Source of the DNA: Jaminaea rosea
Taxonomy: Eukaryota; Basidiomycota; Exobasidiomycetes; Microstromatales
DNA length: 64,000 nucleotides
NCBI RefSeq assembly: GCF_003144245.1
Contig: NW_020289979.1
Coordinates: forward strand, 496,001-560,000
Direction: 5' to 3'
Position 1 is the first letter of the stretch. Each line of letters starts with the position of its first letter. The position numbers were made by a program, and so were the translations under genes. Below are positions 7,919 through 60,187 of the stretch, one piece after another. A model generated the notes under the pieces. That model did not search any database and was not told the origin of the DNA. It worked only from the letters and a program-made list of their open reading frames with translations.

Positions 7919-9904
7919 TTACCGCAACTTGGCAAACGGGCTCAACACGCTACTCTGAGCCAGGCCTTCTTTCCGCTTACTCGCCGCGGGCGTGTTAAGA
8001 TCCCAGAATCTCAACGTCTCATCCCCTGCTCCTGTGACTATGGTCTCCCCATCGGGGCTCATCGCCAAGTAGAGGACACGCATCGTGTGGCCCGTCAAAG
8101 TGGCGATCTGTTGCATACCAGGGTAGCGCCAGACTTGAATCTGGTTCTGCACTTTGCCCGCCGAGTAGCCGTGCGTGGATACCACCTCGTTGGCCGTGCG
8201 TGACCACATGAGGTTGCAGACCTGCGAGCCCGTGTCCACCTCGGAGAGGAGAGAGCCGTTCGTTGTGTTCCAGTAGCGAATCTTCATGTCTGCCGTACCG
8301 CCACCCGAGGCGAGCAAGCCATGTTGGTGAGGAGACCACGCGATAGCCTTGACGGCAGCCGTGTGCTCGCTGAAGCGGTGCAGGGGCGTAGCGTTGAGAG
8401 AGTCCCAGACGAAGAGCTTGTTGTCATTCCCTCCGCTAGCAAGCTGATTCGTCTCCGTGTTCCACTTGAGACCGCATACTTCTTGCTTATGGCCGCGAAG
8501 CTCTCGAATATGCTGCTCAGGGACACGGACGTCGCGATGGTATATGAGGCGGTCGCGCGAGCCAGAGGTGAGGATGTGCTCATTCCATGCTAGGGACCCA
8601 ACGCGAGAGGTGTGACCGCGCATGGTGCGAAGTAGCTTGAGCTTCTCTGCGTCGTAGATCTGGACGAGTCCATTTGCTGTACCGACGGCGATGTGGTTGC
8701 CTCTGCCTGCCCAGCTGAGCGAGGTGACCTTGTCCTCCGCAGGCTCATAGTCGACGAGCTTCTGCACCATGGAGTCTTTCGCCGACCAGAGGTAGACGGA
8801 CTTGCCTAGCCCAACGCCAAGGGTGTTGTTGGAGGACCAGTCGACGAGATTGAGGTAGAAATCATCTGCGAGGTCTGGGGCGTCCAGGACCTTGAAGGGT
8901 ACCTTGCTCACCGTTCTCGCTGGCCGTCTGGGGCTGAGGAGCATGCGCTGCGACTCGAGCCTAACCGGACTCGTATCGTAGCCTCGATGTGTTGGTGAGT
9001 TGAGCGTCTCGCTGGAGCCGTTGACGCCCGCCTTCTTGCCAGCAAAGAGGCTTCCGCTCCCACCGCCGCTGCCGCTGCCGCCACTGCCGCTGCCTCTCCT
9101 TCTAGGCGTAGTATTCGAGCCCACTCTCATCGTATCGTCGCCTACTCCCCGCCTGCTGCCGCTGCTTCCTCCACTGCCTCCCAATGACCTCGAACGTGAA
9201 GATGAGGGCGAGCTGAATGCGAGCAAGTTGCGCTTAGTGGGTGTACTCGGGGCGGTATATGATGCTCGCGAGCTCGAGCTTGCTGCGCCTGCGCTGCTCG
9301 AGGGGGATGCGCTGTAATGTTGAGGTGACTGTGCTGCGGCCGTACCGAATATCTCTGTGCTCAGAAGCGTATTGAAAGTCTCGTTCGCCTCCTCCTTCGT
9401 CGCATCCATGTCTGGCGCCATCTTACGCTTGTGACGGCCCGGCGTGCTGGCCTCGGTCTCCATGAGCTGGAATGCCGCCACCTGTGCTTCTGAGCCTTCG
9501 CGCAATGGTACATAGCTGCGAGAGGGGTGAAAGGGTCAGCATACAGTGACATTACAGAGCTCGCCAGGATCGCCGACTCACCGGTCGGCTTGCACTTGCT
9601 TGTTGCGCTTGCTCGGTGTGCGGGGAGAGTCTAGCTGATGCCTACTGCTAGAGCTACCGTTGACGCCCGTGGCCCCACGTCGCGGTGATTCGTCATGGAG
9701 TGAAGAGGAAGAGCTCGAAGAAGGGCCGCCTCCGCTCAGCAGCTCAGCGAGAGACTCTGTTCTGGGTGCAGCCTGGCTACCATCAACATTGCGAGAGAAT
9801 CTCTTTGTGGGTGAGTGCCTGCCATTAGGAGAGCTTGCGCTGCCGCTTGGCTTGGCTGCGCCAGACTGATCCCTCAATCGTCTCCCAAACTCGCTTTGGT
9901 ACAT
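7919..9904 (-). CDS. CDH1: APC/C activator Cdh1/Fizzy-related (WD40)
   Basis: Substrate adaptor and activator of the anaphase-promoting complex in G1. Exons are 9904-9582 and 9515-7919; the 66-base intron has donor gtgagt and a gctgac branch. The product is 639 aa. The splice junction falls inside the C-box: DR at the end of exon 1 joins YVPLR to give DRYVPLRE at residues 107-114, matching DR(F/Y)IPxR. A long Ser/Gly-rich linker follows. From about residue 312 (KVLDAPDLADDFYLNLVDWS) come seven WD40-type blades with the Cdc20/Cdh1 signatures SGGNDNKLFVWD and HGYSAGKVQNQIQVW. The C-terminus is FAKLR rather than the usual Ile-Arg tail. The closest smut-fungus relative by name is Cru1; Cdc20 is less likely because of the C-box and blade wording. 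Confidence 0.92.
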
Positions 9905-14477: not shown

Positions 14478-14896
14478 GCTGACTGACTGGCCTGACTAGA
14501 TCAATCTGTCCAGATGAGATGCAAGACGCAACTGAGGTGGTAAAGGAAACAAGATATTGGCTTGTTCCACGCCGACTCGCTTGCTTCTTGGCCCTTTTTA
14601 CCGTAGATGCTCGCCCTGGACCCTTGGTCATCCGGCGGCTGCATTTCCCCCCGTCCTGTCGTTGCCGCGTTGCCGCGTTGCCGCGTCTCCTTCCCGCACG
14701 CACGCCTGTGCCTCTCTCCACGGGGCTGCGCCAAGCCAATCTCCGAAGAGCCGGCGGCGGAAAGAGAGGTTCAAGGTTGCATGCAGCGCCGCCTTATCTC
14801 CCAAGTGAGCCACAAGTTCTGCTCTTGGCGCCGAGTAAGTCATCGTTCCGTGTTCCTATCCTCCCACTACCCTCGTCCGCGCCTCTCACTCCAGTC
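14478..14896. promoter_or_regulatory. Shared upstream region of HPP gene and urate oxidase
   Basis: The 419 bases between divergent starts. They contain one GATA-factor-type hexamer (minus-strand AGATAA, 14794-14799). A possible 5'-UTR intron precedes the uricase ATG (gtaagt near 14836, acceptor ctccag just before it). Both readings are suggestions from sequence only. Confidence 0.4.
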
Positions 14897-15889
14897 ATGA
14901 CCTCCTCCGGCCCCACTAGAGATTCCTCGCCCTTTGCTCTCCAATCCTTTTCCTATGGCAAATCCCTCGTCCGCCTCCTACGGGTGGTTCGCCATACCCC
15001 GACTCACCACCATATCGTAGAGTACACTGTTGCGACGCTCCTCTCAGGCCCATCTCTTGCCAGCAGCTACACTGAAGGGGACAACTCCCTAGTCGTGGCT
15101 ACGGACTCGCAGAAGAATACGGTCCACTTCCTAGCAAAGACTCTACCGCCCGAAGAGGTCTTGTGCCCAGAAAAGTTTGCGCTGAGGATTGCGGCTCACT
15201 TCCCTACCAAGTACGCCCATATTGAGAAGTGCGAGGTTGAAGTTGTGTCGCATAAGTGGTCAAGAATCAAACTCGACGAAGCAGGAGCGAATGAGGAGGA
15301 GCACTCCTTTGTTCGCGATGGCGAGGAGAAGCGCACAGTGCAAGTCGTGGCCGAGCAGCAGGGCAGCGATAAGGCCATAGCGATCACTAAGCTTCAATCA
15401 GGCCTCAAGGACCTGCTCCTCCTCAAATCAGGAGGATCAGCATTCCATTCTTTCCTGCGAGACGAATTCACCACGCTGCGTGAGGTGAATGATCGCATCT
15501 TCTCGACCGCCGTGGACTGTCGGTACGACTACGCCCTGCCCGCCGCCTCCTCTGCGGGCATCGTCGACTCCCTGATCGCTTCTCACGATTTCGACGGCAT
15601 CGCATCTTCCATCCGTCAATCCACACTGCGCATCTTCTCACATACGGACACAGGAGCAGCAGCAGCTAGTGTTCAAGCCACTCTGCACTTGATGGCAACT
15701 ACGGCTCTGTCAGCCCCCGAGAACGCCGCCGTTGACAGTATCGAGTATGCTTTGCCGAACAAGCACTACGTACCTATTGACCTCAAGTGGGCAGGATTGG
15801 AGAATATGAAGGAAGACGAAGCAGAGGTGTTCCTGCCGCAGGCTGATCCCAGTGGGTTGATCAAAGCAAAGGTTGGGAGGAAGGCATGA
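14897..15889 (+). CDS. Urate oxidase (uricase)
   Basis: Cofactor-free oxidase converting urate to 5-hydroxyisourate in purine catabolism, normally in peroxisomes. One exon, 330 aa. Family motifs run in order: SYGKSLVRLL with the catalytic Lys at about 22; DNSLVVATDSQKNTV with the catalytic Thr at about 69; SFVRDGEEKRTVQV; SAFHSFLRDEFTTLREVNDR; SVQATLHLMA; and YALPNKHYVPIDL with the catalytic His near 290. The K-T-H triad is therefore complete. The frame is open upstream to an ATG at 14519, but alignment with known uricases puts the start at MTSSGP. The protein ends in KAKVGRKA. Many fungal uricases carry a few more residues ending in a PTS1 tripeptide such as SKL or AKL, and none is seen here. 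Confidence 0.95.
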   Translation: MTSSGPTRDSSPFALQSFSYGKSLVRLLRVVRHTPTHHHIVEYTVATLLSGPSLASSYTEGDNSLVVATDSQKNTVHFLAKTLPPEEVLCPEKFALRIAAHFPTKYAHIEKCEVEVVSHKWSRIKLDEAGANEEEHSFVRDGEEKRTVQVVAEQQGSDKAIAITKLQSGLKDLLLLKSGGSAFHSFLRDEFTTLREVNDRIFSTAVDCRYDYALPAASSAGIVDSLIASHDFDGIASSIRQSTLRIFSHTDTGAAAASVQATLHLMATTALSAPENAAVDSIEYALPNKHYVPIDLKWAGLENMKEDEAEVFLPQADPSGLIKAKVGRKA

Positions 15890-44453: not shown

Positions 44454-45982
44454 TTAGTACTCCTCGACGAGCTCATCGCCCTCACCAGCCGTGTCCATGC
44501 CGACCTCTTCGTAGTCCTTCTCAAGAGCAGCCAAGTCCTCCCTGGCCTCGGAGAACTCACCCTCCTCCATACCCTCACCGACGTACCAGTGAACGAAGGC
44601 ACGCTTCGAGTAGAGCAAGTCGAACTTGCGGTCCAGCCTCGACCAGGCGGCAGCGATAGCCGTCGTGTTGGCAAGCATGCAGAGCGAGCGCGAGACCTTG
44701 GCGAGGTCACCGCCGGGGACGAGAGCGGGGGGCTCGTTGCAGATACCGATCTTGAATCCGGTAGGGCACCAGTCGACGAATTGGATGGTGCGCTTTGTCT
44801 TGATTGCTGCGACGGCAGAGTTGACGTCCTTGGGGACGACGTCACCGCGGTAGAGCAAGCAGCATGCCATGAACTTGCCGTCACGGGGGTCACACTTGAC
44901 CATCTGGTTGCCCTTCTCGAAGGACGAGAAGGTCATCTCCGAGACGGAGTTCTGCTCGTGGAAGGCCTTCTCTGCCGAGATGATCGGTGCGTACGTGGCG
45001 AGCGGGAAGTGGATACGGGGGAAGGGGACCAAGTTGGTCTGGAACTCGTTGAGGTCGACGTTGAGCGAGCCGTCGAATCGGAGCGAGGCCGTGATGGACG
45101 AGACGACCTGGGCGATGAGGCGGTTCAAGTTGGAGTAGCCAGGGCTCTGGATGCCAAGGTTCTTCTTGCAGATGTCGTAGATGGCCTCGTTGTCGACCAT
45201 GAAGGAGCAGTCCGAGTTCTCGAGGGTCGTGTGCGTGGTGAGGACCGAGTTGTAAGGCTCAACGACGGACGAGCTCATCATAGGGGCAGGGTAGACGGAG
45301 AACTCGAGCTTGGCCTTCTTGCCGTAGTCCTGAGCGAGACGCTCAAGGAGCAAGGATCCGAAACCGGAACCTGTACCACCACCGAAGGAGTGGAAGACGA
45401 AGAAGCCCTGCAGGCCCGAGCAGGCGTCTGCGAGCTTGCGGACACGGTCGAGGGTCTGGTCGATGAGCTCCTTGCCGACCGTGTAATGACCACGGGCGTA
45501 GTTGTTGGCGGCGTCCTCCTTGCCGGTGACGAGCGTCTCGGGGTGGAAGAGCGAGCGGTACTGGCCGTTGCGGACCTCGTCGACGACGTTGGGCTCCAGG
45601 TCGACATAGATGGAGCGGGGCACGTACTTGCCGCTGCCAGTCTCGGAGAAGAAGGTGGAGAAGCCATCGTCATTCTCAGAAGGAGAGTTGGCAAGGACAC
45701 GTCCGTCCGGGGTGAGGCCGTGCTCGTTGAGGTAGAGCTCCCTATGAGCGGAGTGGGGAGGTGATGGTCAGTATCTGACGAGAAATAGGACGAGGAATGC
45801 AAAAGACATCAATCAGAAATATGACTCAACTCACCAGCAGCTCTGACCGATCTGGACACCGGCCTGACCGACGTGAAGGGAAAGGACCTGATTACGAAGG
45901 AAACGAAGGATTAGGGGCGTGAGTGGCTGGGAGAAGAGCACGCAGAGTATGTTTGACGTGGCTCTGCACCCACTTCTCTCAT
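44454..45982 (-). CDS. TUB1: Alpha-tubulin
   Basis: Microtubule subunit. Exons are 45982-45974 (only MRE), 45887-45835 and 45741-44454; introns are 86 and 93 bases. The product is 449 aa, the family length. Motifs: [18 protein letters not shown], the GTP-binding [36 protein letters not shown], the alpha-specific [33 protein letters not shown], and a C-terminal acidic tail ending in VEEY, with the terminal Tyr seen in many alpha-tubulins. The loop around position 40 ([19 protein letters not shown]) lacks the acetylatable Lys40. The strong codon bias makes a spurious 391-codon antisense frame. Confidence 0.98.
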
Positions 45983-46413: not shown

Positions 46414-47903
46414 ATGAACTCAGCATTGCAAGATGCCATCAAGAACGGACAGAGGTTGAAAAGTGCATACATACATCAGTGGATTGATGGCCATTGAACA
46501 TTCACAGCTGACCCTGCTCTCTCCTACGCCGCGCTCGCACAGAGGCCACAACGAATGATCGCTCAGCACCAGCTGTAGCAGGCAACGCAGGAGGTGGTGG
46601 TGGAGGGGGAGGAGGGGGAGGAGGGGGAGCAGGAGGTATTGCAGCCGCCGCAGCTGCAGCACGTACTCTCGCATCTGCTCCTAAAGTGCCGGGAACCGGG
46701 GGAGGCAGCGGTGGGGGTGGAGCAGCAGGTTTAGGGGGCATCCTCGCAGGGGGAATACCAAAGCTCAAGCCAACTGGAGCTGCTCCTGCCGCTCCAAAGC
46801 CACCAGCAGCGTCAGCACGTGAGTCGACAGGCGCAGGCTTGGCACAGGCTGGTCTGAGATGGTATCATTGCTGACAGTCCCCTTCATCTGAACTCGCCTT
46901 TCCAGCCAAGCCGCCTGCTGCTCCAGGCCGACCGGTGCCTCCTCCCACACGACCTTCAGCACCTCCAGCTCCACCTCCGCCCTCAAGACCATCTGCAGCA
47001 GCACCGCCGCCCCCGCCTCCTCCAGGGAGACCAGCAGCTCCTTCGGCAGCCGCACCTCCTAGACCGCCTCCTCCTCCTCCGGGCAGGTCATCTCCTGCTG
47101 TTCCTCCACCACCGCCTCCCCCGGCTCGACCAGCAGCAGCATCCCCCGCCGCACCTGCGCCGCCGCCGCCACCTCCTCCAGGGCGACCAGCTGCAGCTGC
47201 TCCCCCTCCGCCAAGCAGACCTAGCGCAGCAGCTCCACCTCCCCCTCCTCCGCCGCCTGCTGCATCCTCATCGGCTCCTGCGCGTGGAGTTCCACCTCCT
47301 CCTTCACGCGCTCCAGCTCCTCCCAGTCGACCAGGTGCGGCACCTCCTGCCCCCCCTCCTCCCTCAACTCCGGCGCGTGGCGCAGTACCTCCCCCACCAG
47401 CGCGCGCCAGCCCGATCAGCTCAGCACCACCTCCACCACCCAGCCGGCCAGCCTCATCTGCACCGCCGCCACCACCACCCACTCGATCAGCAGCAGCCGC
47501 ACCAGCCGCACCGCCTCCACCCCCGCCCTCGCGAGCACCAGCTGCAGCTCCCCCCGCTCCTCCCCCGAGCCGAGCACCCGCGGCGGCTCCTCCTACCCCA
47601 CCACCGTCTCGAGCGCCAGCCGCACCGCCCCCATCCCGCAGCGCTGCTGCCGCAGCCCTGCCTGCGCTCAATGGTGCGGGAAGCAATGGAGCATCGCGCA
47701 GTGTCTCGTCCACATCGATCTCGGGCGGCGCAGCGGGCAAGACTGGAAGGATCCCCTCACCGCCGCCGACGTCTGGCAATTTGACCTTTTCGCCTTCCTC
47801 GGCCTTCCCGCCTCCACGAGCGTTTGCGGGAAGTGGAGCTTCGCGCGTCTATCCTGGTGGGAAGACAAGGGGCAGCACGTTCGATTGGAGTACGGTTGGA
47901 TGA
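46414..47903 (+). CDS. VRP1: Verprolin / WASP-interacting protein
   Basis: Actin-regulating partner of WASP at endocytic patches. Exons are 46414-46462, 46543-46818 and 46906-47903; introns are 80 and 87 bases. The product is 440 aa. The WH2 actin-binding motif is split by intron 1: NSALQDAIKNGQRLK joins KATTNDRSAP, the classic LKK...TNDRSAP of verprolins. A Gly/Ala-rich stretch and about 290 residues of Pro-rich sequence with many PPPPPP and SRP/GRP units (SH3 and profilin ligands) follow. The WASP-binding end is LTFSPSSAFPPPRAF, then SRVYPGGKTRGSTFDWSTVG. Unlike most family members, the WH2 motif sits at the very N-terminus with no preceding Pro-rich segment, so an upstream exon could be missing from this model. 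Confidence 0.88.
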
Positions 47904-53005: not shown

Positions 53006-56000
53006 TCATCGTCTGACAAACAGATCCTTCCACCCTTCGACGTACCGCAGCTCATCGAGATGCTTGATTGTGGCATCGCCAATGACTTCCTCTGACTGCG
53101 TGCCCGTCGATGCTACCGCCGCTGCCGTCGCCGAGGTTGAGGCTGCGTCTACTGCCGTCGTGAGCCCGTTGCCGGCGCCATTGATCGAGCCATTGAACGT
53201 GGAGCCGGCGAAGCTGACCCTACGTGTCGTGAAGGGCGGGCGTGAGTATCATCCTGTTCATCTGATCTCCTTCTTGTGCCACTCACCTGTACACCAATCC
53301 ATCACTGCATCCTACGACGACGCTCTCGTCGTCCACCTCGATGCACATAGGGTTACGCTCTGACGTTGTTAGGTTCTCTTCGCCTGAAGCGCTTGCCCAA
53401 GCGCCACGAAGCTTGGCAGAGGGGGCTGCTCCGCCATCGGCGATAGCGGATGGCGAGGAGGCGTCGAAGGTGCTGACGTAGATGCTTCGCTCTTCAGGGG
53501 GGACCCGCGAGGCAAACCGGGTGGAGCAGATGACGCGACGCTGCAGACGACCAGGGTCCATGTGGTTAGCGCAGGAGATTGGATTTGGTCTTTGCTGAGG
53601 ATCACTCACCTTCTGCGGATGCACAGCTCCCGTCACGACCTCCGGAGTTTTAAGCACGCTCACGATCCTGGGCGGTACGGCCAGATTGGGAGCAAAGCGA
53701 CTCTTGGTCTCGACTTGGCCGTCGGTACGTGTTGCCTCGCCAATCGCATCAGCCGCGGTGCTACCGCTCCCGTTCCGCCTCGAGGGAGAGGGAAGGGAAG
53801 CAGCTGAAGAGGACGGCGTCATACTTGACAGGCTGGAAGACAGGCTCTTGCTCGACGACGAAGGAGTCAAGCCACTACCTGTACCAACGAGACTCTTGCG
53901 CTTGGTTGTACTTGAGGAGGGGGTTGATGGCGCAGTACCGCCAAGCGAAGCGCGCGAAGCTCGCAGGCGCGATGCAGATGGGCTAGCAGCCAGCGATGCG
54001 CTTGTTGTGGCCGTCGAGGTGGAGGCTGTGCTGGCGTTGGAAGTTGTCCGAGTCCTCCTCGTCGCACTGCTTGGCGTCCTGCTTGGCGTCGTCGTCGTGC
54101 TCACAGCCGACTCAGTGGAGTCGCGCCTTCCTCGCGCTGATGGCGTTTCGGAGCCTGTCGTCTCGATGTGCTCCGCCCACTCCAAATGAACCACGGTCGT
54201 CTTGCTTGCGACGGTTATCGAGTTCCGATGCGCCGCGAACCACGTCAGTATCCCGGCCTCGCCGCCTGCAGCCGTGAAATCCTTGAGCATGGCGCCCCAC
54301 TTCGTGTCCCCTCTACCCAGCTTCGCCAGATGATACTCTCCCACCATTCTCTTTCCCGCAATAGAGAAGCACCTAATGACCCCATCAATAGTCACCGCCA
54401 CCAACTTGTCGTCCCCCACGAGCGACACGCCTAGACTCACGTTGGCCTGCTGGCCAAAGCGCGCTACTCGTTCGCCAGTACTGTGGTCCCACACACAGAT
54501 GGCTTTGTCTTGTCCGACGGAGACGACGTGTCGCGAATCAATAGCGACATGCCGGATGCCCCGATTATGGCCCGTAAGGGTGTGTAGGTGGGCGCCTGTG
54601 GCCAGGTCGAAGAGGAGAATGCGACCCGTGTCGTAGAGGCCGGCAGCAAGGAGGCTGGGCGTTGAAGAGGCAGAGGAATCGACGAGGAAGTCGAGGCAAG
54701 CAATCTTGTCTGCTTTTATGACTCGACGACAAATAGGGGCCACGCTTGAGTCGGACAAGTCCCATACGCGCAGAGTTCCATCATGGCTGCCCGTCACGAG
54801 GGTATCCCGGCCGCGCAGCTTCATCGAGGTGACAAAGCCTGTGTGCCCCCTGCAGAACTGGACGCCCTGCCCGAGCCCACGCGACCAGTTGCGCTCGCGA
54901 ATGTAGAGCTTTTGCACGACGTCGCGCCATGACCGTGGGTCGGAGGGAGGAGAGAGGGCCTTTGCATCGGTCTCAGTCAGCGCGAGGGCGTGGGACCGCC
55001 ATATGTCTGGATGAGCAGTGAGGGACTGCCATCTCTTGCAGACCAGGGCGCTGCGGAGAAGCTGTACGTGAATTGAAGAAGCAGGTCAGCATGCAAGCTC
55101 GTGAGAGATATACCCTCTTTCTTCAACCCACGTCTTGTACCGCCAACCTCTCAAAGATGAGCACCGCCAGCCTCTCTGGCAGGTTGCTGATGATGTCCTT
55201 TGTCACCCCAATTTGGCCCTCGATGGTGCGTTTGATGCTCAGCAGGTCGCCAGACATCGCCGCATCCAACACGATGTTCAGCAGCCTAATACGCATCGGT
55301 CGCGAAAGTGAGCGGATCCTCTGCTTGATCGCCTCCTCGTCTAGCGCTTCGCCATTACCTAAGGCCATCAAGCTGTCATTGACGCCCTTCACTGCTTTCC
55401 CTTCCCCCTCATCATTGCCACCAACAGCACGCTCTACCTCGACCGGTTCATCCTCCTTGTAAAGCACAGATGAGCCCCAGCCCAGCCCTGCAGATGCCTT
55501 GATATTCTTAGCGCTGTCGTCCACGAAGAAGAATTTGCTCGCATCATTGACCCTCACAATCTGCGCCGCCGCTGCAAAGTACCCTTTGTCTGGCTTGCAG
55601 CAGAACAAGGGTCCAGCAGCATAGTCACAGTAGACTATGCCATCGAAGAGGTGCTCGAGGCCCAGAAGCTTGATGCAGCGGAGGGCATGCGTCTTGTATG
55701 CGTTGGTGAGGGCAAAGACGCGGCACTTTGACCGGTCCAGATCCTCGATGAGGGAGGTGAGGGCTGCTTCTGGTTTCAAGAGACCATCGAGCGGAAGGGA
55801 GCCGTCTACGCGTCGGTCGTAGTCTAGCGGGTCGATGCCGGAATGGTTCTTGAGCAGGCCCCGGATAGCAAGGCCGTGCTCGCTGTAGTATCGCTGGTGG
55901 AGAGCGCCGGCCTCGTCTGGGGGTAGACCGAGGCCGAGAAAGTAGGCATGGATGCGCTCGCCCATTAAGTCGGCGATTCGGGTGGATTTGTGGTAGAGGG

Positions 56001-56349
56001 TATTGTCTGCCGGCGAGCGGGAGGAGTGAGGGTCAGTCGCCCGCTCAAAGTGAGTCGAGTCCATGCAGCAACAATCACCTATGTCGAACCACACGATGCT
56101 GCGCTGGTCACCATCGCTTACAGCCTCAAGATCATCCTCGCTGACATTCAGCCCCACGTATCCTACGCCCGTCTGCTGTCTAATTCTCTCCACCCTCGAT
56201 GTCGTTGAGCGAGTTGTGCCATTGCTGCACGTTGCCTTCTCGCCGCTCTTCCTTGGCGTTGAAGCCGACACTCTGCCTCTGACAGGCGTCTTTGTCGACT
56301 GCGATGCTGAAGACCTCGCTGCGGAAGCAGCAGTTGGAGCAGGAGCCAT
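53006..56349 (-). CDS. HAD pyrimidine-nucleotidase (Sdt1-like), F-box and WD40 fusion protein
   Basis: Five exons: 56349-56079, 56006-55132, 55061-53610, 53540-53287 and 53219-53006; introns are 65-72 bases. The product is 1021 aa. Residues about 85-310 are a HAD hydrolase of the Sdt1/Phm8 type: motif I FDIDNTLYHKS (junction inside the Asp codon), motif II FALTNAYKTHA, motif III CKPDKGYF, motif IV FFVDDSAKN. A linker and then an F-box follow at about 365-405: IISNLPERLAVLIFERLAVQ joins DLLRSALVCKRWQSLTAHPD across a splice, with the DIW ending. WD40 repeats start at FCRGHTGFVTSMKLRGRDTL, interrupted by a 150-residue Ser/Thr-rich insert. Nucleotidase and F-box lie in the same exon 2, so this is not a splice artefact of two genes. 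The F-box-WD40 half resembles SCF adaptors such as Cdc4/Met30. Confidence 0.82.
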
Positions 56350-56736
56350 CTTCCAGGCCTCAACAGCCTGAATGACAGTAAAGAGAGGAGGCAAGGAAAG
56401 GAGGGCGAGGGTCAAGCAACACGCAGTCAGCAACGCAGCAACGTCAGTCCGATGTCTGACCCCACGCCCCGCCCTTCGGCGCTTTCGAATCGAGTCTCGC
56501 GTTGCGCACGGGGCGCACCATTTTCGCAACCTTGTTGTTGCCTCGCCTTTTTCTTCGCTTGCATCCTCATCACAAAAGGCGCAGCCGGGCCGCTCGTACC
56601 TGACGGGCCGTCGCCTTCCCTCACCCAGACGAGTCAGCGCGGGCAGCAGCAAAGAAATAGGCGGCGGTCTACATCTTCACTCTTCTCCCTACACGACCCA
56701 TAGCCTCGCAGCAAGCCCGCACCTAGCCAAGCAACA
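56350..56736. promoter_or_regulatory. Shared upstream region of nucleotidase-F-box gene and CWH43
   Basis: 387 bases between divergent start codons, with no recognisable gene. It must contain both promoters. Confidence 0.5.
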
Positions 56737-59700
56737 ATGCAACCTCGCTCTCGCCCTCCCCTCGTCACCATCTCAGCCGGCTACATATCCTATGCTCACA
56801 CCGTACTAGGATTCTCCGCCTTCTTTGGCGCTCTCATCCTGGGCCTATGCCTACACTATCACAAGATCGTCAAGAATCATGTAGCGGGATGGCCAGACGA
56901 ATGGTGGCCGAGCGTGAGCGCGACGATCGGCGACTGGCCGCAGGAGCGCTCCATTTTGCAGATCTTCATCGCCCTCATGTCCGGCCCGAGGATTTCCCTC
57001 GTCCTTCTATCGGCTCTGCTCGTCTCTCTGTCCAACCCTCAGTCGTTCAGAAGTAAGGCCTTGGCCTCGACAGGGATCCTGCGCACCCTATCATGCGGGG
57101 GATGGGTGTATTGCACATCGACCGACCTTCCCCTGATCCACGACGTGGCGATGATCCTCTACCTAGTGCTAACTCCCGTCTGGATGTTCATCTCTTGGGG
57201 GTCACTAGCACCGCAGCCGGAGAAGGAGGCGAGGGCGACCGCCCACGACTCGCCCGCCGCGAAGCTGTCCGAGCGTGCTCGCAAGACAAGGAGGAACACC
57301 GCTGCAGCTTTCTTTGCCTCTATTCCATTCATGTGCCTCTTCTACTATCGGCATAGAGTACTGGAGATCCCGGGAGCTTACACGACGTACTCGTTCTTTG
57401 AATGGAATCTGATCATCCAGGTGAGCAAGGAGGGGGATCAGCAGAAGCCAACCTCGTCTCACCGCCTATCTGTCCCGCTATACAGGACCTCCTCTTCGAC
57501 CTGTGGTCAGTGTACGACCTCTGCAGGCTGGAGATACATATCGTCGAAGCCACAGAACCGTCACCCCGAGCAACATTGGGAGGTAGCTGGTGGACTGGGG
57601 GGACTGCAGTAGCTGTGCGAGACAAGGCGTGGAGCACTTCGCCTGCATCAGCCGCTGTCGCTCAAAGGTACGAGAGGGTCTTGCCGTAGCTGGTGTCTTC
57701 ATATATCCGAATCACGCTCATCTCCTCATTCATCTGCGCGCCTGTAATCATCAATGGCTCACAGCGTCGCCTCAGATGCGAAAGAGGTCGACGAGATCCT
57801 CGACTCGGCAGACGATGAAGCCGACAAAGGGCATCTTACAGTGGAGCTGTCCCCACGACGTCAGGTGTTTGCCTTCCTCTCGGACATCTACGTTGACTTC
57901 CTCTGGTGGACAACGCTTACAGCTCTCCACCCAAGCAGTGAGTAGAATGCTGGTTCGCGAACCGAAGTGATGGGAGGCTGACGTCTGGTTCCTCCGTCAC
58001 AGTCTTCTTCTTCTCCGTCTACAACCTAGCGATAGGCGGGCATGAAATCCTCCTCATCACACAAGTCTTCGCCCTCGGCATTACGCTCATCCCTTCCCTC
58101 AGGTGTAAACTGCTCGAAGAGCCCTCCCTACTCGTGACACCGCGTTCCAAGCCAGCCCTCATCGGCCTCTGGGCCCTAAGCCTCTCCTCAATCGCAACGT
58201 GGTGGATCCCAGATCCACTCAGTCGCCTTGGCTTCACCGGACTGGCGGCGGGAGGCATCGCTGTCAGCCAGGCCCTCTCGTGGGGCGAAGCGTGGCAAAA
58301 GGGAGACAAGGAGGTGCACAGGAGAGTCGTGTCTTGGCTGGTGGGGCTGGCACTGAGCTCTACGGCCAAATACGCGAACCACAGCAACAATCCGCTTTGG
58401 CCTTTCATGCATTCAGGAAATGGGGGAAAGCAGCCGATTGGGCTTGCGTTGGCTGGTCTGAGCTTGATCGAGCTGCTGAAGAGACCGGCGAGCTCGACCA
58501 ACACTGGCACCGGCGGCCGAGCACGCGTCAAGGCGACGAAGGTGGATGAGTTGCAGGCAGCTCTTGGTATGGGTGGCCTCCTCTTCGCGCTGCACACCTT
58601 CCTAACCGACTCGGGCACTATGATCGCCTGGACTTGGACAGGCTTTCCCATCAAGGGGTGAGTGGGCAATGTGTGAGCTGAACTCGAGGACTCCTTCTGA
58701 CGTTCTACTCTGTCGCGTCTCGCAGACCCATGGCTATCCCACATGGCTGGCTGATCCTCGCCTCAACGTCGATTGGCATCGCCACAGCCGCAAGTCGCCC
58801 AGACTTCGGCCATCACCCTGCGGTCCTCTTCTTCCTCGCCCTCTGCAATATTGTTCTCATCCTCACACGCAACTGGGTCGCTTTCTTGGCTGCGATCGAC
58901 ACAGCTTTTCTCCTGCCCCTCGTGGCCTTCCCACTGGTACAAGGAGCGCTACGCCATCATCCGCTGCGGATCATGCTCTGGATCTGGCTCGTCGCCGATT
59001 TGATGACCTTCTTCCAGGTGCTGACGGTAGCCTACGCTTTTGTCCCCGGCGGAATGCCCTTCAGGGAGAAGACGTGGGCGATGCTCGCGGTGCAGCTCCT
59101 CTTCCTAGGGGTGGGATTGCGCCAGGCCCAGCGTAGTGACAGCAAGACTGCGGCTTCCATTTCACACCTCAGCCTACCGCGACCCATCATGCGCTGCCTC
59201 ATCGCCCTTTTGGCCGCGATCGTAGCGGTCGCAGTCGCCGTCTCCCGCATCAGGCTGGTCGACACCTCGACCATCATTCCTCATCATGCGCACGACGGCT
59301 CACGTGTCTTTACCGCAGGCATCCAGACGGTTCACTTCGGGCTCGATCAGCTCTTCCACGACTCATCCCGCCGAATGGCCGACCTCTACTCGGACCTCCA
59401 GCTGGATGTGCTCGGCCTCCTTGAGACGGACCTACATCGCAGCGTCTTTGGCAATCGCGACCTGACGCAATACCTTGCCCAGTCTCTTGGTATGTACGCG
59501 GACATCGGGCCTTCTCCATTGGGCCATACCTGGGGGTGCGTGCTGCTCAGCAAGTTTCCGATCGTCAATACGACGCATCACCTCCTTCCCAGTCCAGACG
59601 GAGAGCTCGCCCCTGCCATCCATGCAGTGCTGGATGCCTTTGGGGAGCACGTCAACGTTTGGGTCTCTCATAATGGGCAAGAGGAGACGCCCGTGGACCG

Positions 59701-60187
59701 CGAGCTTCAGACAAAGGCAATAGCCCGCGTAGCAAGCGCGACCTATCCCCAGCCCTTCGTCTTCCTTGGCTACCTCGTCACCAAGCCCCATGCAGAGCGA
59801 CCCAGTCCATATAAAATCCTCTTCGAAGATGGTCGGATCCATGACGTCGAGCCGCTCGACTCCATGCGCTGGTGCCAGTACATCGGCTTCAGGTCCCTGT
59901 CCCGTGTCGCCTACATCAGGGTGTCCCGATACACGCTCACTGACACCGAGCTGCAGCTGGCCAAGTTCCGTGTACCGGATATCACAGGCGGTGAAGCGCC
60001 CCTGGATCCAAGCAGAGACGATAAGCCTAGACTGGTGAACCACGATCATCCTATGGTCAGGCCGGAATGGTGGTTCCCCACGCACTACATCGATCGCTTT
60101 GCGAGCCCGAGCGAGAAGTTCTCTTACACACCGTGGGTCTATCCGCGCTACTACGCGCCCAATGAGGAAGAGGTGGTGGGCGTATAG
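56737..60187 (+). CDS. CWH43: CWH43, GPI-anchor lipid remodelling protein
   Basis: Membrane protein that installs ceramide on GPI anchors. Exons are 56737-57420, 57486-57667, 57765-57937, 58003-58657 and 58726-60187; introns are 65-97 bases. The product is 1051 aa. The N-terminal PGAP2/Frag1-like half has about six membrane segments (YAHTVLGFSAFFGALILGLC, ISLVLLSALLVSLS, VAMILYLVLTPVWMF). The middle carries more segments (IFFFSVYNLAIGGHEILLIT, VLFFLALCNIVLILTRNWVA). From about residue 760 comes the endonuclease/exonuclease/phosphatase-like domain: LLETDLHRSVFGNRDLTQYL, DIGPSPLGHTWGCVLLSKFP, and VSHNGQEETPVDRELQTKAI. Domain order is that of yeast Cwh43 and human CWH43. Confidence 0.93.

Follow-up and report, generated by a model that had tools for sequence, protein, structure and literature searches.

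A Jaminaea rosea gene model joining a nucleotidase-type HAD domain, an F-box, and WD40 repeats

Introduction

The yeast nucleotidases Sdt1 (280 amino acids [aa]) and Phm8 (321 aa) are both described as stand-alone enzymes (PMC13059787). The amount of these enzymes appears to matter to the cell: overexpressed active Ifn1, from Schizosaccharomyces pombe, is reported to be toxic, and active Sdt1 to be growth-inhibiting (PMC13059787). The half-life of Sdt1 is given as ~30 min in the wild type and ~43 min in cells lacking Pof1, which speeds its turnover, and ubiquitination of Sdt1 has been suggested (PMC13191266). Yeast Phm8 is reported to be degraded by the GID ligase via Gid11, a WD40/YVTN-like protein that is suggested to read an N-terminal threonine (PMC8189435).

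F-box proteins can also carry enzymes themselves, and the first of them shown to have its own enzymatic activity was, according to PMC1712225, the F-box DNA helicase Fbh1. In receptors of the FBXW7/Cdc4 type, an F-box is followed by WD40 repeats. To our knowledge, Fbh1 has no WD40 propeller.

Here, we describe a predicted gene, within a 64,000-nt stretch of Jaminaea rosea DNA (the window), in which an Sdt1-like HAD domain precedes an F-box and WD40 repeats (Table 1). Its HAD part has the catalytic residues, TIGR01993 assignment, and fold of Sdt1/Ssm1 and Phm8 (Saccharomyces cerevisiae) and of Ifn1, but, unlike in those enzymes, some 700 further residues with an F-box and WD40 repeats come after it. 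The order of F-box and WD40 repeats is that of FBXW7/Cdc4-type receptors (17 of 49 F-box positions are identical to FBXW7), from which the protein differs in having an enzyme before the F-box and a degenerate propeller with a long insert. With Fbh1, it shares the pairing of an F-box with an enzyme, although the enzyme is a different one. The reported Gid11-Phm8 pair likewise places a nucleotidase of the same family under a WD40/YVTN-like ubiquitin-ligase receptor; there, however, the two are separate proteins, the ligase is GID rather than SCF, and the degron is an N-terminal threonine. Residue 2 of the fused protein is Ala and no N-terminal threonine is present; therefore, the protein does not reproduce the Gid11 route as such.

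Results

Gene structure. The initial annotation had placed a five-exon, phase-consistent model of 1,021 codons at 53006 to 56349 and gave no strand. The coordinates are correct, the strand is minus (read from 56349 to 53006), and the spliced translation agrees with the model: the spliced length of 3,066 nt equals 1,021 codons plus a stop, phases agree across all five exons, and all four introns have GT...AG ends. Codon 91, which intron 1 splits, encodes the second Asp of HAD motif I, and removal of this intron restores the motif FDIDNTLY. Intron 2, if retained, would bring a stop two residues past aa 382. The evidence for intron 3 consists of its splice signals (GTGAGT...CAG), and a four-exon form of 1,044 residues (+23) is therefore possible. 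Introns 1 and 3 both have lengths divisible by three and contain no stop in frame, which may be chance. Retention of intron 1 would add 24 residues to the active-site loop and replace DID with DIG.

Table 1. Features of the fused gene (window coordinates; aa, residues of the spliced protein)
Feature	Position	Strand	Residues and remarks
Whole coding region	53006..56349	-	1,021 aa in five exons; spliced translation
Exon 1	56079..56349	-	aa 1-90 plus base 1 of codon 91; N-terminus rich in Ser, Thr, and Ala, followed by HAD strand 1, which carries the nucleophile D89
Intron 1	56007..56078	-	72 nt; in frame, stop-free; splits codon 91
HAD 5'-nucleotidase domain	55450..56097	-	aa 85-276; span takes in intron 1
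Exon 2	55132..56006	-	aa 91-382; HAD domain from codon 91 on, linker, helices preceding the F-box, F-box as far as aa 382
Linker and predicted helices	55192..55449	-	aa 277-362; joins HAD domain to F-box
F-box	54990..55191	-	aa 363-406; span takes in intron 2
Intron 2	55062..55131	-	70 nt; within F-box
Exon 3	53610..55061	-	aa 383-866; rest of F-box, the clear WD40 blades, and the low-complexity insert
WD40 blades	54168..54863	-	aa 449 to ~630 by profiles, to ~680 by eye
Low-complexity insert	53658..54167	-	aa 681-850; Ser/Thr/Ala-rich, 56% S+T+A
Intron 3	53541..53609	-	69 nt; in frame, stop-free; called from splice signals
Exon 4	53287..53540	-	aa 867-951; late blades presumed here on weak evidence
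Intron 4	53220..53286	-	67 nt
Exon 5	53006..53219	-	C-terminus; stop at 53006-53008

The nucleotidase domain. An Sdt1/Phm8-type HAD domain with four catalytic motifs had been proposed and is borne out by profile and sequence searches. Pfam places HAD (PF00702) at aa 86-264 with 59.2 bits (gathering cut-off, 26.4), and the NCBIfam equivalog for pyrimidine 5'-nucleotidase, TIGR01993, scores 149.2 bits, a narrow margin over its cut-off of 142.9. Against PDB sequences, the HAD part matches yeast Sdt1 (3onn, 9.9e-45; 43% identity over the aligned stretch) and a plant XMP phosphatase (7ef6, 1.5e-12). All four motifs (DxDxT, the motif II Thr, the motif III Lys, and the motif IV DD) are found, and the residues D89, D91, T93, T191, N192, K228, D253, and D254 are kept.

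A prediction for aa 78-382 was made with AlphaFold from an input in which intron 1, being in frame, was left in place (adding 24 residues) and which was aligned with 30 bacterial relatives; its mean pLDDT is 79, with ten-residue blocks over aa 94-273 at 81 to 96, and the best PDB structure matches of the HAD model are again Sdt1 (3onn and 3opx). The C-terminal helix of Sdt1-type enzymes was not placed in this comparison, in which MAFFT put the bacterial tails on the F-box.

These relatives came from prokaryotic genome contigs, where a single-sequence query had confirmed none of 33 pattern matches and an alignment query recovered at least 367 relatives among at least 597, of which 80 were kept. 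As all 80 kept loci are bacterial (the collection holds prokaryotes only), they are informative for the HAD domain only. Thirty of the 80, not counting the window sequence, were compared at the active site: D89, D91, T93, N192, K228, and D254 are identical in all 30 and T191 in 29, an invariance that is partly built in because the patterns used to pick relatives contain FD[IL]D[ND][TC]LY or the TN motif. The D253 column holds Asp in 12 relatives and Glu in 18. Among viral contigs, none of the 11, 7, and 285 pattern matches to the HAD and F-box/WD queries was confirmed.

Two further positions bear on the kind of enzyme encoded. At D158, Sdt1 also has Asp and the bacterial relatives have His (29) or Asn (1); the HAD domain is therefore of the fungal type. 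By residue counting, D158 would be the equivalent of Ifn1 Asp80, which is predicted to contact ribose and is needed for activity (PMC13059787). In Ifn1, a single base-contacting residue is reported to switch nucleotide preference (PMC13059787); counted in the same way, this site (Arg50 in Ifn1, Asn in Sdt1) would correspond to His127, and the bacterial relatives have Gln (19) or Arg (11) there. Because His127 is neither the Asn of Sdt1 nor the Arg of Ifn1, the preferred nucleotide is not predictable, and the earlier naming of UMP/CMP was a guess.

The F-box. That a canonical F-box is present, with its first half in the same exon as the HAD domain, had also been noted and holds on both counts: aa 363-406 score 44.6 bits with F-box-like PF12937 (cut-off, 24.3) and 32.7 bits with PF00646 (cut-off, 20.5), with residues 363-382 in exon 2 and 383-406 in exon 3. 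Searched alone against PDB sequences, the region is closest to FBXW7 (0.00018), SKP2, and Dia2. The FBXW7 structure, 2ovp, is by its title a Skp1 complex, and the F-boxes of SKP2 and Dia2 bind Skp1. A search for a D (dimerization) domain before the F-box, with Pfam at E values of up to 10, gave two F-box families only.

The WD40 propeller. The WD40 repeats of the initial annotation are recovered as well: PF00400 scores 39.7 bits (cut-off, 27), so that, as in the FBXW class, an F-box is followed by WD40 repeats above cut-off. Profile scores of the size seen for the three domains do not arise by chance. In a search of PDB sequences with the F-box/WD part, FBXW7 (2ovp, 1.1e-27) is the best natural match, behind two designed propellers. 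About four blades are clear, and the later ones are weak; the best Pfam match in the late-blade region reaches 12.9 bits (E = 0.056), and when the propeller pieces were joined without the insert (342-residue query), no best stretch extended beyond residue 196 among the matches listed (60 of 109). For aa 383-675, a structure model from the single sequence is of poor quality (pLDDT, 51), and its matches, led by Cdc4/Skp1 and Fbw7/Skp1, carry no weight as evidence here. Two phosphodegron-binding arginines of FBXW7 fall within the gapless FBXW7 alignment; by counting that is uncertain in register within the degenerate blades, one of these two is kept (R552) and the other is replaced by Gln (Q566).

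One gene or two. Whether the HAD domain and the F-box belong to one gene turns on the 86-codon linker between them. It has no in-frame stop, and several stops occur in the two remaining minus-strand frames; 86 open codons have a chance probability of P = 0.07. Openness of the linker alone proves little, because one reverse-strand frame (55022-55462, plus strand) is open across it too. Splice signals and codon usage add to this picture. Between 55557 and 54767, the only strong donor is at 55131, the donor of intron 2, which leaves the linker without a competing donor; scanning 55500-55150 for GTRNGY gave none in the linker either. A codon model was trained on other genes of the window, using 14 stretches that surround Pfam matches (3,423 codons in all). 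It scores aa 277-317 at +11.8 in frame, versus -35.7 and -43.7 in the other same-strand frames and +6.6 in the best reverse frame; for aa 318-362, the values are +8.0 in frame, -35.1 and -13.5 in the other same-strand frames, and +6.7 in the best reverse frame. The F-box segment scores weakly (+4.0; best reverse frame, +3.2), and neither the N-terminus (-7.6) nor the low-complexity insert (-21.2) reads as coding in this model. AlphaFold predicts helices between the HAD domain and the F-box, with block pLDDT values of 50 to 79.

Taken on the sequence, HAD domain, F-box, and WD40 repeats very probably form one fused gene, and the domain combination is a real and unusual one. Both halves are of known kinds, and it is their combination that would be new; in the open-licence PMC literature, we found no description of a HAD nucleotidase-F-box fusion among the matches listed. 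The same architecture may already be present in public fungal proteomes.

Discussion

Starting from the gene model, the domains, and the catalytic residues, which are read from the DNA, we infer single-protein expression, Skp1 binding, catalysis, autoubiquitination, and a coupling among them. If the whole fusion is expressed as a single protein, its F-box would bind Skp1, so that the protein would serve an SCF ubiquitin ligase as substrate receptor, and its N-terminal domain would be a working nucleoside-5'-monophosphate (perhaps NMN) phosphatase. The simplest consequence is that, through the fusion, the enzyme would be turned over as F-box proteins are. The receptor would be ubiquitinated by its own SCF whenever no substrate occupied the WD40 propeller, such that the amount of nucleotidase would fall with an idle ligase and rise with substrate bound, while the propeller would still recruit other targets. 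With its amount tied to ligase occupancy, the nucleotidase would thus be self-limiting. We tentatively favor this reading, an active enzyme docked on SCF, capped by SCF self-ubiquitination, with a propeller that recruits substrates, at a likelihood that falls somewhat short of even. The coupling is made plausible by yeast, given the degradation of Phm8 via Gid11, the fast turnover of Sdt1, and the harm done by excess Ifn1 or Sdt1. Against it stand the yeast route for Phm8, which is GID rather than SCF, the absence here of the threonine read by Gid11, the weak late blades, the reverse-strand frame and chance probability that temper the open linker, the low codon score of the F-box segment, and the fact that a passive fusion would look alike.

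Such a passive fusion, in which co-directional neighboring genes merged, the halves keep their old jobs, and only equal amounts are coupled, seems rather unlikely in its own right and is nearly as likely as a self-limiting nucleotidase. It agrees with the match of both halves to ordinary families and with a short, charged linker; attachment to an E3 receptor would nevertheless be expected to have an effect, because in yeast a ubiquitin ligase controls Phm8 and the turnover of Sdt1 is subject to regulation. The locus could instead yield several products, namely, a HAD-only form (HAD plus half an F-box, by retention of intron 2) and an F-box/WD40-only form from an internal start. The immediate stop upon intron 2 retention and the in-frame ATGs before the F-box (Met304, 328, or 341) would allow this, but the GT-AG ends of intron 2 speak against it, as does the F-box that is restored when this intron is spliced out, and neither intergenic space nor an in-frame stop separates the domains; we regard this scenario as distinctly improbable.

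The initial annotation had suggested that the protein could couple pyrimidine-nucleotide breakdown to ubiquitination or that its HAD domain could act as a ligand sensor. The basis of that interpretation, one phase-consistent gene with four HAD motifs, a canonical F-box, and WD40 blades, stands; the intact catalytic residues favor an active enzyme over a pure sensor. A HAD domain that binds nucleotide, catalyzes little of importance, and adjusts how substrates are delivered to SCF would fit its position immediately ahead of the F-box in the same polypeptide, as well as the presence of His127 at the putative base-contact site, unlike in Sdt1 and Ifn1. A pure sensor would, however, tend to lose some catalytic residues, and all those checked are kept, which makes it very unlikely. 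More improbable still is a mis-assembly joining two unrelated genes within exon 2: frame and codon usage are continuous across the junction, the HAD and F-box domains are each recognized over nearly their whole profiles, and a tandem-repeat scan gave no array near the junction.

If the self-limiting nucleotidase, or any version of the fusion that is expressed and conserved, is real, a nucleotide-breakdown enzyme would be physically tied to a ubiquitin ligase, and another kind of enzyme would join the F-box proteins with their own activity. The enzyme could thereby bring along the handle for its own degradation. Since turnover of these enzymes in yeast runs along separate routes and their excess is harmful, the fusion would offer a simple test case for the control of nucleotide salvage. 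In a bolder and unlikely version, the protein would be a fixed, lineage-wide enzyme-E3 chimera. The state of the nucleotidase (nucleotide bound, or the propeller occupied by a substrate) would then determine which protein SCF destroys, the enzyme itself or another one; if so, nucleotide salvage and proteolysis would be linked by a direct molecular switch.

Genomic surroundings

Upstream of the fused gene lies a divergent neighbor with Frag1 (open reading frame 56704-57609) and PGAP2IP domains (57942-58658 and 58682-60184), which we take to be a Cwh43-type gene. Searches of the 64-kb window for tRNA genes and Rfam families gave no match. A uricase domain (Pfam) at 14483-15886 on the plus strand marks a purine-breakdown gene ~37 kb from the fusion, probably by coincidence. 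At 7922-9535 on the minus strand, a CDC20/Fizzy WD40 domain scores 429.6 bits; this gene is presumably another ubiquitin-ligase WD40 adaptor. A very proline-rich open frame at 46875-47903 on the plus strand, where long frames overlap in several readings, gave no Pfam match at 0.001, and we take it to resemble a verprolin/WIP-type actin regulator. At 44457-45767 on the minus strand, a single open frame contains the two domains of a tubulin gene.
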